Assembly (NCBI RefSeq): GCF_027307225.1
Contig: NZ_DAHUXJ010000116.1
Location: 1 to 64,000 of the forward strand
Direction of reading: 5' to 3'
Length of the DNA stretch: 64,000 nucleotides
From: Bradyrhizobium sp.
GTDB lineage: Bacteria; Pseudomonadota; Alphaproteobacteria; Rhizobiales; Xanthobacteraceae
How positions within the stretch are numbered: the first letter of the stretch is position 1; the number at the start of each line of letters is the position of its first letter. The translations under genes were made by a program, and so were the position numbers. The notes under the pieces were generated by a model. The model saw only the letters and a program-made list of their open reading frames with translations. It was not told the DNA's origin and made no database searches. Shown here piece after piece: positions 302-9,741 of the stretch.

Positions 302-1839
<1,538 letters not shown>

Positions 1840-1843
<4 letters not shown>

Positions 1844-2955
1844 CGCAGCTCTCCGGTGTGCAGGAGCAAACGCGCCGCACCGCGCGCCGCGATGACGACG
1901 CCATATTGCGTGTCGCAGGCGCCGGTCACGCCGTGGAAGCGGCCGCCGGCCCGGCTGTGCAGGCTGTCGGTGGCATTGCCGTCGCCGTCGAGATGAACCA
2001 GAAAGCCGTAAGAGCGCGGCGGCGCCCAGGGCTTCTGGATGCCGAGCGCTTTCACGCCACCGATCTGCATCGGCTCGAGACAATCGCTGCCGCCGGCAAA
2101 CGCCGGCGCGATCCAGTAGTCCGGCGCCATGGTCTCGATCATGTCCTTGCGGAAGTCGTCTTCGTTGAGCACGAAATCGATCAGATGCGTGCGCCGTGCG
2201 AACACGCCCAGGAACAAGCCGCCATGGGCGTCGAGATGCAGCCGCGCCGGATAACCGGGCAAATTGGGTGCAACGACTTCGCGCGGGCCGATACCGTTTG
2301 CGGTCAGCGCAAAGCGGCTCAATCGATGCGCCCAGCTTTCCGCGAGCCAGAGCCGTTTTCCATCCGCCGAGACCGCAACGCCATAGGGGTAGGGCAGGTC
2401 GTTCAACAACACCCGCGCATTGCCGAGATCAGGACCGCAGACAACAAGGCGTCCGTTGCTGCGCTTTTCCATCAGATCGTGCCGCCACTGACCGGGCGCG
2501 CGGCCGGTAGAGCCTTCGACCACGAAGATGCGTCCGTCCGGTGCTGCCGTCACTGCGGTGAGCCCGGCAAAGCCGCGCCCGTCAGCGGATTCCAGCCAGC
2601 GCGGACTGGGACGAGCCGGATCGAGCGCGGCGAGCCCGCGGCCGGCGACACACACGAGAAGCCTTCCGTCGGGATGGATCGCGAGGGCGCCGGCGTCGCC
2701 TTCGAACTCGGCGACGAGGCTGCGCTCGCCGAGGCCGTTGCCGCTGAGCTTCAAGACCTTCTTGCCGGCGGAGACGTAGACGCTGCCGTCCTTGGCCACG
2801 ATCACATCGTCGAGGCCGGGCAGTGGATCGCCGATCGGCGCGCAGGCATCGAGGCGATCATTGGGGCTGAGCGCGCCGTCGAGCGGCGGAATGGCGTTCT
2901 GCACCCCGTCGCGGTCGACGACGCTGCGGATGTCGCGCAACAGATGATCGAACAT
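1840..2955 (-). CDS. SMP-30/gluconolactonase-like beta-propeller protein
   Basis: A 371-aa protein without a signal peptide, so probably cytoplasmic. It contains repeated beta-propeller phrases (PDGRIFVVEGS, YPYGVAVSADGKRLWLAES) typical of the SMP-30/strictosidine-synthase-like superfamily, many of whose members are metal-dependent lactonases. It starts 4 bp after the stop of the permease fusion gene and overlaps the ATPase start by 4 bp, so it is translated with the transporter. A role in hydrolysing a sugar lactone brought in by this transporter is a reasonable inference, but the substrate is unknown. The start at MFDHLLRD was chosen because the upstream extension is coding sequence of the previous gene. 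Confidence 0.85.
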
Positions 2956-2959
2956 TGCG

Positions 2960-5107
2960 CTATCCTCTTGCCGGGCTCTTGATGCGGCTCTTGGCGCCCC
3001 AATAGGCGTCATAGCCGCTCCATGTTTCGTCGACGCCGTCGAGCTTGATGCGGCCGATCCGGTTGTTCTCAAGCCCGCCAAGATAGAGATAGCCCTGGTG
3101 CTCGCGCATCGAGGTCAGCGTCGAATGCGAAATCCCGGTCGGATCCCACCAGGATTCCAGCGCCTCGCCGGCTTCATTGAACTTCAGCACGCAGCCATGG
3201 TTGAGCGCCGGTGCCAGCCATTCGTCGGCCGGCACCTGCTTGACCATGCGCAGGCGGAAGCCCGGCTTGCGCGCGGCAAGGTCGAAGGTCGGCGTGCGGA
3301 TACCGACCAGCGCCAGCCAGTAATTTCCATCCGAAGCGCGGTTGATGTTGTCGGGATTGCCCGGCAATTCGTCGATCAGGATCTCGGTGCGGCCTTTCTT
3401 CGGGCCCTCGATCCAGTAGCGGAAGATCTTGCAGAGTGACGTGCTCGCGATCAGCACCGACTTGCCGTCATGCGAGACGCAGACGCCGTTCGGAAAATAG
3501 AAATGATTGATCACCGTGCGCGTGGTCTTGGTGGCGGGATCGTAGCAGACCACGCGTCCGTTCGGCCGCGCCTCGATGATGTCGAGCGTGTTGGTCGTCA
3601 TCTCGTAGCGCGTGGTGCAATCGCTGAAATAGATCTTGCCGTCGGGCGCGATGTCGAGGTCGTCGGCCATGCGCAGCCGTGAATCGTCGTTGAGCTTGTA
3701 CCAGGTGCGGTTGGTCTCATCGGTGACCTTGAAGACGTTACCTTCCGGCGCAACGCCGTAGACGCCCATGCCGGCGACCGCGACGATCAGGTTCTCGTCG
3801 CGATCGAACTGCATGCCGAGCGGCCGCCCGCCGATATGGGCGAATACCTCGCGCTTCTCGAAATTCGGCCCCGAAAAACGGATGACATTGCCGTCGCGGG
3901 TCGAGCCATAGAGGCGGCCCTGGCGGTCGAGGATGACGTCCTCCGGTCCCTCGACCTGGTCGAGGCCGATCGCCTGCGCTTTGATCAGGCGGTCGTTCTG
4001 CGCGTAGGGCGAATTCGCGCCCGGTTGCACCGACGGCGCCGGCGACAACGCGACAAAGGCCGGATTGACGTAGATCTTCTGGATCGCCTTGCCGCGGTTC
4101 TTCGACCATTTGACGTCGATGCCGACCGCAGCGAGCAGGATCAGCCCGGTCACCGCCGAGGTGACATAGCCGGGGATGCCCATGCGCACGAGGCCGTTGG
4201 TCAACAGGAAGATGATCAGCGCGCCGATCATCGCGCGCCACACCGTGCCCTTGCCGCCGGCGAGCGACACGCCGCCGAGCACCACGGCGGTCAGTGCCTG
4301 AAACTCCCAGCCGACGCCGGTGGTCGAATCCGTGCTCGCCTGCCGCGCCGCGTAGAAGATGCCGCTTGCCGCGCACAGCACGCCCGACAGCACATAGGTC
4401 ATGAACAGCATGAAGCGGACGCGGATGCCGGCATGCCGCGCCGCCTTGCGGCTCGCGCCGATCGCGGTCAGGTGCCAGCCATAGCGCGAGCGCGACAGGA
4501 AGATGTGGCAGACCAGCAGCACGACGAACAGCGTGGCCGCGTTGATGGGAATGCCGAGCACGCTGCCGCCGCCGATGAAATCCCAGGCGTCGCTGTCGAC
4601 CGAATTGGTCGCGAACACCTGCGCATAGCCGGTGTTGAGCAGGTTGACCGAGGCGCGCAGGATAATCAGCGTCACCAGCGTGGTGAGGAATGGCCGCGTC
4701 TTCAGAAAGCCGATCAGAAGACCGTTGATGCTGCCGAGCACGCCGCCGACGGCGAGCGTTGCCACGATCACGCCGCCGACCGGCCATTCCTGCACCAGCA
4801 GGAAATAAAGCGCCGAAAAGTTGCACAGCGCGAAGATCGCGCCGACCGAGAGGTCAATGCCGCCCGAGATCAGGCAAAATCCCATCGCCAGCGCGACAAA
4901 GCCGAACTCGGCGAACAGCCGCAGCAGCGACAGCATGTTTTGCATGGAAGCGTAGTTGGGGATCGTCAGCGCGAAATAGACCCACAGGCCGATCATCACC
5001 GTGAAGGGAATGACGGGCTCGAACCATTGCTTCAGCAATAACTCGGACAGCAACAGACGGGGCGAAAACCGCCGCACCGACGTCGCAAGCGTATCCATCG
5101 TCGACAT
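2960..5107 (-). CDS. RbsC-like sugar permease fused to an SMP-30-like domain
   Basis: A 715-aa fusion. Residues 1-335 are a BPD_transp_2 permease with about 8-10 hydrophobic helices and the family phrase SGGIDLSVGA (81-90). A linker rich in Pro/Ala/Ser (about 336-372) leads to a second, different SMP-30-like propeller (about 375-705) with VEGPEDVILDRQGRLYGS and FPNGVCVSHDGKSVLIAS. The usual permease length is about 330 aa, so the C-terminal half is an extra domain, and the frame is continuous. Since the permease C-terminus is normally cytoplasmic, the propeller would sit at the cytoplasmic mouth of the channel. ATG at 5107 is preceded by GAGGAG; the Met at codon 4 is an alternative. It follows the binding-protein gene after a strong hairpin. 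Confidence 0.9.
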   Translation of the reverse strand: MSTMDTLATSVRRFSPRLLLSELLLKQWFEPVIPFTVMIGLWVYFALTIPNYASMQNMLSLLRLFAEFGFVALAMGFCLISGGIDLSVGAIFALCNFSALYFLLVQEWPVGGVIVATLAVGGVLGSINGLLIGFLKTRPFLTTLVTLIILRASVNLLNTGYAQVFATNSVDSDAWDFIGGGSVLGIPINAATLFVVLLVCHIFLSRSRYGWHLTAIGASRKAARHAGIRVRFMLFMTYVLSGVLCAASGIFYAARQASTDSTTGVGWEFQALTAVVLGGVSLAGGKGTVWRAMIGALIIFLLTNGLVRMGIPGYVTSAVTGLILLAAVGIDVKWSKNRGKAIQKIYVNPAFVALSPAPSVQPGANSPYAQNDRLIKAQAIGLDQVEGPEDVILDRQGRLYGSTRDGNVIRFSGPNFEKREVFAHIGGRPLGMQFDRDENLIVAVAGMGVYGVAPEGNVFKVTDETNRTWYKLNDDSRLRMADDLDIAPDGKIYFSDCTTRYEMTTNTLDIIEARPNGRVVCYDPATKTTRTVINHFYFPNGVCVSHDGKSVLIASTSLCKIFRYWIEGPKKGRTEILIDELPGNPDNINRASDGNYWLALVGIRTPTFDLAARKPGFRLRMVKQVPADEWLAPALNHGCVLKFNEAGEALESWWDPTGISHSTLTSMREHQGYLYLGGLENNRIGRIKLDGVDETWSGYDAYWGAKSRIKSPARG

Positions 5108-6246: not shown

Positions 6247-7281
6247 TTAATCGCCCTGCCGCGCGGTTTCCTCGTCGCGGGGATGCAGCCAGTTGTCGAG
6301 CACGATGGCCGCAAGCAGCACGATGCCCTTGATGATGTTCTGGACCTCGGTGTTGACGTCCATGATGGTGAAGGCGTTGAGCAGCGTGCCGATCAGAACG
6401 CAGCCGACCACGACGCTGAACACGCTGCCGCGCCCGCCGATCAGGCTGATGCCGCCGATCACGACCACCAGCACCACGTCGAAGATCATGGTGCCTTGCG
6501 TGATGGCCATCTGCATGCTGCCGGTGGTGCCGACCCAGACGAAGCCCGCAAGCCAGGCGAGGATCGCTACAATCACATATTCCAGCACGATCAGTGGCCG
6601 CAGCGCGACGCCGGAGAGCCGCGCAGCCTCGGGATTGTCACCCTGCGCGTAGATGAAGCGCCCGACCGAGGTGCGCGACAGGAAAAGCTGGATGACGATC
6701 GCCGCGAAAGCGAACACGAAGATCGGGACCGGCACGCCAAACAGGTGGCCGGCGCCGAGGTACATCAATCCCGGCGCATCCTTCGGCGCATAGACGACCC
6801 AGGCCGGCGCAAACCAGAACGCAAGGCCGTAGATGACGAAGCCCGCGGCGAGCGTAACGAACAACGGCGGGGCCTCGACGAAGGCGATCATCACGCCGTT
6901 GATCGCGCCGATCGCAATCGCAAGCACGAGCGCGATCAGCACGGCCGATGGCGTGGACATGCCTCGCTGCATTTCGATCAGGGCAATCGACCACGATCCC
7001 GCCATGATCGCGACTTCGCTGAGGTCGATGCCGCGGCTGATGACGATCAGTCCCATGCCGAGACCGAGGATGCCGAGGATCGAGATGCTGCGCAGCAGGT
7101 TGAGAAGGTTCGAGACCGTGGCAAAACCGTTGAGCGTGAAACCGAACACGATCAACAGCGCGATCGTGATCGCGAGCACGATCTGTTCCTGATTGGTCTT
7201 TCCGAAACGGAAGCGAGGCAGACGCGTGGCGGCGAGCGACTGGTACGCTTGCGATCCAGCATCTTGCTGCGGCAAAGCCAT
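6247..7281 (-). CDS. RbsC-like sugar ABC permease
   Basis: A 344-aa BPD_transp_2 family inner-membrane permease with about ten hydrophobic segments, the family phrase SRGIDLSEVAIMAGSW and the cytoplasmic-loop motif GDNPEAARLSGV. It presumably pairs with the permease half of the fusion protein downstream to form a heterodimeric channel. The start MALPQQDAG at 7281 is preceded by GGAGG with good spacing, so the 402-aa ORF was trimmed. It is the first gene of the operon; the 242-bp gap upstream of it should hold the operon promoter, although I could not pick out a convincing -35/-10 pair. Confidence 0.92.
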   Translation of the reverse strand: MALPQQDAGSQAYQSLAATRLPRFRFGKTNQEQIVLAITIALLIVFGFTLNGFATVSNLLNLLRSISILGILGLGMGLIVISRGIDLSEVAIMAGSWSIALIEMQRGMSTPSAVLIALVLAIAIGAINGVMIAFVEAPPLFVTLAAGFVIYGLAFWFAPAWVVYAPKDAPGLMYLGAGHLFGVPVPIFVFAFAAIVIQLFLSRTSVGRFIYAQGDNPEAARLSGVALRPLIVLEYVIVAILAWLAGFVWVGTTGSMQMAITQGTMIFDVVLVVVIGGISLIGGRGSVFSVVVGCVLIGTLLNAFTIMDVNTEVQNIIKGIVLLAAIVLDNWLHPRDEETARQGD

Positions 7282-7523: not shown

Positions 7524-8108
7524 TTACGGTTGATGCCGCCGCGTGATCGCGACCTGCGCGGCCTGCGTATAAAGGCTCGAGACCAGTTCGAGATGCGAGC
7601 CGGCTGCAACCGATTTGTCGGCCCAGCCCTCCAGCGCCTCCAGCATCGGCGGCAAGGTCGTGGCGCGTAGCGCCGCATAGGCCTCCGTGACGGAGTGGCC
7701 GGTGTCGGTGGCGCGGTAGCGCGTTTCCTTGCGCGACGACGACCCTTCGGTCTCGATCAGTCCGGCCTTCACCAGCTTGCGGGTGGCATATTGCATGTTG
7801 GGGACGTCGACGCGGTTAAGTAGCTGGCCGATCTCCGAAAGCCGCTTCGGCTCGTCGCCCATCCGGATCACGTTGAGCACGGCGACATCGTCGCCTGTCA
7901 GCGGCACATCGCAGACCGCGGCCAGGCACGAGGCCTTCCAGCGGTAATAGGCCTGCGCCAGCCGTTCCAGGCGGAATTCGAACTCCGACAGCCGCCGCTC
8001 GGTCTCGGTGCGCGCCAGATGCCAGGAGCCCGGCCGCTCGCCGGTCGCCGGCTTCGGTTTGACCGCCGGACCGGTTCGTTTTGCCGCGGCCTTTTGCGTC
8101 TTCCTCAA
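7524..8108 (-). CDS. Winged-helix (MarR-type) transcriptional regulator
   Basis: About 194 aa. After a basic N-terminal tail, residues about 40-180 (from this start) form a MarR-like winged helix: LTGDDVAVLNVIRMGDEPKRLSEIGQLLNR (helices), then YATRKLVKAGLIETEGSSSRKETRYRATDTG (recognition helix and wing). It likely regulates the sugar transporter operon 242 bp downstream on the same strand, but nothing in the sequence proves this. The ORF can be extended to ATG 8195, but that start lies inside a CTAG-bounded palindromic repeat; TTG at 8108 has GGGAG six bases upstream and is preferred here. The start is uncertain. Confidence 0.75.
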   Translation of the reverse strand: MRKTQKAAAKRTGPAVKPKPATGERPGSWHLARTETERRLSEFEFRLERLAQAYYRWKASCLAAVCDVPLTGDDVAVLNVIRMGDEPKRLSEIGQLLNRVDVPNMQYATRKLVKAGLIETEGSSSRKETRYRATDTGHSVTEAYAALRATTLPPMLEALEGWADKSVAAGSHLELVSSLYTQAAQVAITRRHQP

Positions 8109-8163
8109 CCTCGTCTCCCGATTTTCGCTTTCGATCAGTCGCTGGATCGGCCCTTTGGGCGGC

Positions 8164-8436
8164 CTAGTGGAGTGGATTTGACATTCGCTACCCACTTAGC
8201 CGCGAATTCGAAAAGCGAATGTCAAATCCCATACTCCGCTAGAGACTTGAATTTGCTAGTGGTCCTTTGATTCTAACATTCGCAAACGTGCCCGCTGAGA
8301 AGGGATGCGAATGTTAGAATCGGACCACTAGTGCCGAATCTACCCTATTTACAAGTTCGATTCTTACATTAAAAATTCAAGTAATAAAACATGATGAAAA
8401 GGCATGGCCCCTAGTACTTCGGAAAGTGGGCGCTAG
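8164..8436. repeat. Cluster of CTAG-bounded palindromic repeats (modules A, B and half of C)
   Basis: Module A (8164-8242) begins and ends with CTAG and folds as TTTGACATTCGCT...AGCGAATGTCAAA. After 13 bases, module B (8256-8331) also runs from CTAG to CTAG and folds as GATTCTAACATTCGCA...TGCGAATGTTAGAATC. At 8411-8436 there is only the right arm of a third module, C (ACTTCGGAAAGTGGGC), again with CTAG at both ends. The same modules recur elsewhere in the window in other combinations. No coding sequence lies between 8243 and 8508. Confidence 0.85.
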
Positions 8437-8508: not shown

Positions 8509-9741
8509 ATGGCGGGACAATGGATCGATATTGCGGCCCAGGATGGCGGCAAGTTCAAAGGCTACCTCAGTGTCCCCGCCTCGGGCTCGGGCCCCGGCAT
8601 TCTGCTGTTGCAGGAGATCTTCGGGGTCAACAAGTCGATGCGCGAGACTGCCGACTACTACGCGGAAGAGGGTTATGTCGTGCTGGCGCCGGACCTGTTC
8701 TGGCGCATGGAGCCCGGCGTCGATCTCGGCTACGGCGAAGCCGACTTCGCCAAGGCGTTCGGCTACTTTCAGCGCTTCGACGTCAACCAGTCGATCAAGG
8801 ATTCCGCCGACGCGTTGAAGGTGTTGCGCGCGCGAAGCGAATGCAAAGGCAAGGTCGGCGCACTCGGCTTCTGCCTCGGCGGCAAGCTCGCTTATCTCGT
8901 CGCCGCGCGCACCGATGTCGATTGCGCGGTCAGCTATTACGGCGTCGGTCTCGAGGCCGATATCGCGGAAGCGGGCAAGGTCAAGGGGCCGATGGTCTTC
9001 CATTTCGCGGAGCTCGACAAATACGCGCCGGCTGAGGCGCGCGAGCAGGTCAAAGCCGCCTTCAAGGGGCGCTCCGACGTCGAATTCTATCTCTATCCCG
9101 GCTGCGACCACGCCTTCGCCGCGCCAGAACGCACGAGCTTCAACAAGCCGGCGACGTTGATGGCGCATTCGCGCTCGATCGCCCTGTTCCGCAAGGTGCT
9201 CGGTCCGCACTACGATCTCTCGTCGCTGTGGGACCGCCATACCGAACTCGAATTCGCAACGCGCTCGGCTGAACAGACCATGACGACCATGGTCGCCGAG
9301 CCCTATGTCAACCACATCCCGACCATGACCGGCGGCGTCGGCTATCGCGATCTCCTGCGCTTCTACAAGCACCATTTCATCCCGAAGACGCCGAAGGACA
9401 CCAAGCTGGTGCCGATCTCGCGCACCATCGGTGCCGATCGCATCGTCGACGAGATGCTGTTCTGCTTCACGCACGATATCGAGATCGACTGGATGCTGCC
9501 GGGCGTGCCGCCGACCGGCAAATATGTCGAGATCCCGCTGGTCGCGATCGTGCGCTTCCGCGGCGACAAGCTCTACAACGAGCACATCTACTGGGATCAG
9601 GCCTCGGTGCTGGTCCAGGTCGGCCTGCTCGATCCGAAGAAGCTTCCCGTCGCCGGTGTCGAAACCGCGAAAAAGCTCGTCGATGAAGCCTTGCCATCGA
9701 ACACGCTGATGGCGCGCTGGTCGGAGAGTTCGGGCAAATAA
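8509..9741 (+). CDS. Dienelactone hydrolase fused to a SnoaL/NTF2-like domain
   Basis: 410 aa. Residues 1-230 are a dienelactone-hydrolase alpha/beta-hydrolase domain: QEIFG (Glu36), nucleophile elbow GFCLGG (Cys122), Asp170 and His201 (CDHAF) form the expected Cys-Asp-His triad. Residues about 235-405 look like an NTF2/SnoaL-fold domain (RDLLRFYKHHFIP, IPLVAIVRFRGDKLYNEHIYWDQ). Single-domain dienelactone hydrolases are about 235 aa, so this is a two-domain form. It likely hydrolyses a lactone or ester in a catabolic route. It precedes a peptide-type ABC transporter on the same strand by 70-73 bp with a small hairpin between, so it may be co-regulated with that system. Confidence 0.9.
   Translation: MAGQWIDIAAQDGGKFKGYLSVPASGSGPGILLLQEIFGVNKSMRETADYYAEEGYVVLAPDLFWRMEPGVDLGYGEADFAKAFGYFQRFDVNQSIKDSADALKVLRARSECKGKVGALGFCLGGKLAYLVAARTDVDCAVSYYGVGLEADIAEAGKVKGPMVFHFAELDKYAPAEAREQVKAAFKGRSDVEFYLYPGCDHAFAAPERTSFNKPATLMAHSRSIALFRKVLGPHYDLSSLWDRHTELEFATRSAEQTMTTMVAEPYVNHIPTMTGGVGYRDLLRFYKHHFIPKTPKDTKLVPISRTIGADRIVDEMLFCFTHDIEIDWMLPGVPPTGKYVEIPLVAIVRFRGDKLYNEHIYWDQASVLVQVGLLDPKKLPVAGVETAKKLVDEALPSNTLMARWSESSGK

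Follow-up and report, generated by a model that had tools for sequence, protein, structure and literature searches.

A strictosidine-synthase-like propeller fused to a CUT2-type permease within a conserved five-gene importer cassette of proteobacteria

ABC importers of the CUT2 class are commonly viewed as distinct from the enzymes that act on the imported compounds. Systems such as RbsABC and AraFGH consist of a Peripla_BP_4 binding protein, BPD_transp_2 permeases and a tandem-domain ATPase, and the same parts make up the five-gene cassette described here, whose best NCBIfam matches are RbsC, AraH, XylG and AraG; unlike these systems, the cassette carries a propeller fused to one of its permeases together with an obligate second propeller. 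Sequence and fold searches place the fused propeller nearest to the plant strictosidine-synthase-like (SSL) hydrolase TGW6 and to strictosidine synthases, followed by DFPase. Within the N6P superfamily most SSL proteins retain four metal ligands and are considered more likely to be hydrolases; one that has three of the four shows hydrolytic activity (reviewed in PMC4215206). In rice TGW6, the nearest solved relative, the metal-site positions of the superfamily are E59, N167, N226 and N272, and no calcium is bound in the crystal (PMC10958001).

The window, that is the whole 64,000-nucleotide stretch of Bradyrhizobium DNA that was analysed, holds the cassette on its reverse strand, next to a winged-helix gene:

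302-1843 (-): ATPase of the tandem-domain CUT2 type (XylG/AraG/RbsA-like), with two ABC domains
1840-2955 (-): PROP2, a second SSL-fold propeller with a predicted dismantled metal site and a conserved loop, 294-317
2960-5107 (-): fusion gene (PERM1, linker and PROP1), one open frame of 715 codons (715 aa)
2960-4042 (-): PROP1, the propeller half, residues ~367-700, with SSL_N and Str_synth matches and predicted metal ligands E389, D482, N540 and D586/N587
4043-5107 (-): PERM1, the permease half, residues ~1-340, with BPD_transp_2 at residues 57-328 and ten predicted helices
5172-6194 (-): periplasmic binding protein (Peripla_BP_4), whose N-terminal stretch resembles a signal peptide
6247-7281 (-): PERM2, a second CUT2 permease, unfused
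7524-8195 (-): winged-helix protein (HTH_27, MarR-like), a possible local regulator outside the conserved cassette

Along the direction of transcription the order is PERM2, binding protein, fusion, PROP2 and ATPase. The fusion gene starts at an ATG at 5107 preceded by GAGGAG, only 4 bases separate it from PROP2, and the ATG of the ATPase gene (1843) overlaps the PROP2 stop. With two BPD_transp_2 permeases, a Peripla_BP_4 protein and a double-ABC ATPase in one operon, the locus has the composition of a CUT2-type ABC importer, and none of its importer proteins reaches a substrate-specific (equivalog) NCBIfam cut-off. PERM1 itself is a complete CUT2-type (RbsC/AraH-like) permease in Pfam (128 bits); its best NCBIfam models, ribose RbsC and arabinose AraH, both score far below their cut-offs, and a sequence search of this half against a copy of the Protein Data Bank returned no relative at E<=0.01. 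The last PERM1 helix is followed by a charged motif, K/R-W-x-K-N, that is nearly invariant.

The initial annotation described an RbsC-like permease and an SMP-30 propeller joined in a single frame; the fusion is genuine over its 715 codons, and it is the family name that has to change. The N-terminal part of PROP1 matches SSL_N at residues 367-411 (58.8 bits, curated cut-off 18.9) and Str_synth matches residues 482-568 (84 bits, cut-off 25), whereas the SMP-30 model SGL, also above its cut-off, is weaker and partial (51 bits, residues 426-602, model positions 41-203 of 246). PROP1 shares with SMP-30/gluconolactonase (SGL) and DFPase the superfamily and a four-ligand metal site, but SGL is neither its best-scoring domain nor matched over its full length, and by these domain scores it is best described as SSL. 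A structure model of the fusion, of moderate confidence (pTM 0.53, mean pLDDT 73) and with an unreliable orientation of the propeller relative to the channel, gives PROP1 a six-bladed propeller of the strictosidine synthase (STR) type; its top Foldseek matches in the PDB, at TM 0.72-0.79 on the target, are to strictosidine synthases and TGW6, with DFPase next at ~0.70.

The fusion gene is real and ancient. Sixty full-length fused homologues align with it from end to end, and the linker between D331 and N371 is exactly 40 residues long in 55 of them. The junction itself showed no start codon with a Shine-Dalgarno sequence that is conserved among fused homologues, which rejects an internal start that would yield a separate propeller. 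Throughout the class, phylum and family samples, PROP2 and its like aside, propeller homologues of at least 49% identity are all fused and those at or below 41% all stand alone. A frame-by-frame check found permease and propeller in one frame at nine further fused loci; at the loci of stand-alone propellers it found no such permease in frame or within ~1.5 kb on each side. In a phylogenetic tree the fused propellers form one clade (support 100/99), showing that the fusion arose once, and the PROP2s another (100/100).

A frame break in three records (L049, L050 and L052, near 7300) speaks for the rival view that the fusion stems from faulty sequencing or assembly, or from two genes taken for one. 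All three breaks are an identical one-base loss in GGCGGCCGGCC, a GC-rich context that lies within the propeller, away from the junction, and they come from two Bradyrhizobium assemblies, two of the three from one B. altum genome. Because the same base is lost in the same context in two similarly named assemblies, a systematic sequencing artefact is the most likely cause. Set against the 60 intact homologues, the fixed linker and the missing internal start, an error at the junction has a vanishingly small probability, and the genome surveys, the linker and start scan and the frame-by-frame check together refute it; the survey for related genomes with two separate genes likewise recovered no split version.

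A scan of GTDB genomes yielded 47 loci; within the limits of each contig, nearly all of them show the five genes of the cassette and have the fusion in one frame. The cassette also occurs on plasmids of Paraburkholderia, Pantoea, Shinella, Sulfitobacter, Paracoccus, Celeribacter, Salipiger and Rhizobium, next to differing neighbours, so that a fixed cassette with changing flanks is found in Alpha-, Beta- and Gammaproteobacteria. PROP2 adjoins the fusion in 19/19 fused copies of the phylum sample, which contained no PROP2-type gene without the fusion. Public annotation names one half only, either 'SMP-30/gluconolactonase' or 'ABC transporter permease', and so hides the transporter. No description of the fusion or cassette was found in the open literature, and papers on gene expression in Bradyrhizobium in which gluconolactonase or SMP-30 genes are named make no link to it; the parts are known, and the arrangement is recorded in databases only under the name of one half.

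Ten membrane helices precede the propeller in the fusion model, and the charges are one-sided: the N-terminal side of the membrane, with the long loop 207-229 and the C-terminal end, has 17 K/R residues and the opposite side 0. By helix count and the positive-inside rule both ends of PERM1 and the propeller are predicted to be cytoplasmic, placing PROP1 on the ATPase side and bearing out its earlier assignment to the cytoplasmic face. The same helix count and charge bias reject a periplasmic propeller; PROP2 also has no signal-peptide-like start, in agreement with a cytoplasmic placement.

Alignment maps the four TGW6 metal-site positions, in order, to E389, D482, N540 and N587 of PROP1, the last of which is adjacent to D586. 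E389, N540, D586 and N587 are invariant in 61/61 fused propellers and residue 482 is D or N in all of them, most often D, in contrast to the N of the characterised enzymes; PROP1 has three acidic residues at the site (E389, D482 and D586) compared to one in TGW6. Having the complete four-ligand set of the metal-dependent N6P hydrolases (SGL, DFPase, PON and hydrolytic SSLs), PROP1 looks like an intact metal-dependent hydrolase. It shares SSL_N, Str_synth, the metal-ligand positions and the fold with SSL proteins such as the bacterial stand-alone members and rice TGW6, and differs from the stand-alone proteins in being fused behind a permease, in its predicted cytoplasmic location, in forming a clade of its own at no more than 41% identity to them, and in residues invariant only in the fusion.

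Plant strictosidine synthase has the same fold and Str_synth domain and lacks the N and D metal ligands of PROP1. Its catalytic glutamate, Glu309, aligns to T665, a threonine in 61/61 fused propellers, and Pictet-Spengler chemistry is rejected on that ground. PROP1 diverges less than PERM1 and the binding protein and about as much as the ATPase, which says that its site matters without telling its role.

The structure model of PROP2 has the same SSL fold, and at the equivalents of the PROP1 ligands its residues are different: E389 is replaced by D in 58/62 sequences and residue 482 by T or L in 59/62; N540 is kept in 11/62 and lost in 51/62, mostly to Y; D586 is A, G or S in 62/62 and N587 is R in 59/62. 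With the four-ligand set of the metal-dependent hydrolases broken up in this way, PROP2 should not bind a metal in the manner of PROP1. Two different propellers of one fold in a single operon had prompted the proposal that they act on two successive or alternative lactones; the second, stand-alone gene next to the fusion is there, and the lactonase role assigned to it is not supported in view of the breakdown of the ligand set across the family (n=62), which makes this proposal highly improbable.

The most conserved stretch of PROP2 is elsewhere. Loop 294-317, absent from PROP1, is nearly invariant (P295, Q297, G305, K308, S315 and G317 in 62/62), and it is also where the monomer model has its lowest confidence. 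Since it is conserved yet apparently unstructured when alone, we infer that it is a docking element. A non-catalytic PROP2, as judged by its residues, that is nevertheless retained everywhere would also fit a mainly structural role for both propellers, as a scaffold for the two permeases and the ATPase in which the PROP1 site is a relic; a relic would, however, be expected to decay as the PROP2 site has, whereas the slowly evolving PROP1 retains all of its ligands, and we consider a pure scaffold improbable.

A genuine fusion, a predicted cytoplasmic propeller and the retention of hydrolytic metal ligands make processing at the channel exit the leading reading: a putative hydrolase held at the exit of the importer, PROP2 being a subunit for docking or scaffolding, a reading to which we assign about an even chance. 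Sensing or gating ranks below it as a tentative alternative, and scaffolding alone comes third. In a sensor or gate, PROP1 would bind the imported compound or a metabolite in the cytoplasm and inhibit or permit the ATPase, with PROP2 transmitting or stabilising the signal, much as the regulatory domains of certain other ABC importers do. Such a role would be in keeping with the fixed linker length, the obligate pairing with a dead propeller, the ATPase-like conservation of PROP1 although the binding proteins diverge, and invariant fusion-specific residues outside the metal set, including N589, P606, N636, H661, N681, N682 and R683. The complete ligand set in 61/61 sequences, typical of hydrolytic members, speaks against it, but conserved ligands would be expected in a ligand-binding sensor too. 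Further points count against hydrolysis: the usual D instead of N at 482, the calcium-free crystal of TGW6, the unreliable orientation in the model and the flanks that differ between loci.

The five genes encode a single CUT2-type ABC importer, composed of a binding protein, two permeases that differ from each other and a double-domain ATPase, in which PERM1 carries PROP1 through the 40-residue linker on the predicted cytoplasmic side, next to the ATPase. If PROP1 is a hydrolase, the substrate, possibly an ester, a lactone or a similar compound, would leave the channel and be hydrolysed at the metal-dependent site near the exit, trapping the product and keeping the inside level of the imported form low. 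PROP2 would be a catalytically dead partner whose loop makes the contact with PERM2, PROP1 or the ATPase, possibly so that there is one propeller for each permease. Taken as a whole, a family of importers that physically couple transport to chemistry, with the cargo hydrolysed at the channel exit by the permease's own domain and an obligate dead twin of that enzyme serving as a positioning subunit, is a possibility that we put forward tentatively. An enzyme-like domain is attached to one permease in all the relatives found, which span three proteobacterial classes. If the PROP1 site is active, the cassette offers a case in which to study the coupling of import and hydrolysis; if it is inactive, one in which to study how a propeller regulates an importer, and the pairing of an enzyme with its dead twin makes both ideas accessible to point mutation.

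Flanking genes at the loci across the surveys vary from locus to locus and are mostly oxidoreductase and acyl-CoA genes, not sugar-specific ones. LysR regulators, short-chain dehydrogenases and acyl-CoA ligases recur; other neighbours include dehydrogenases and carboxymuconolactone decarboxylase-like genes and, near the cassette in several Bradyrhizobium, a salicylyl-CoA 5-hydroxylase-type gene. The acyl-CoA ligases, dehydrogenases, decarboxylase-like and hydroxylase-type genes give a weak hint that organic acids or aromatic compounds are worth considering as candidate cargo beside sugars.

The genome of the window contains a second complete cassette (contig C125, L109:4452-13257), whose fusion is 51% identical; there an acyl-CoA synthetase gene leads the cassette and an AraC-type regulator is divergent. 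At L012:10929-14158 and similar Bradyrhizobium loci, genes for a bifunctional salicylyl-CoA 5-hydroxylase/oxidoreductase and a short-chain dehydrogenase come after the cassette, and a LysR regulator gene is divergent upstream. Within the window, a 410-aa frame at 8509-9741 (+), transcribed away from the MarR-like gene that neighbours the cassette, joins a dienelactone hydrolase to a SnoaL-like domain, the SnoaL_2 match being below the Pfam cut-off.
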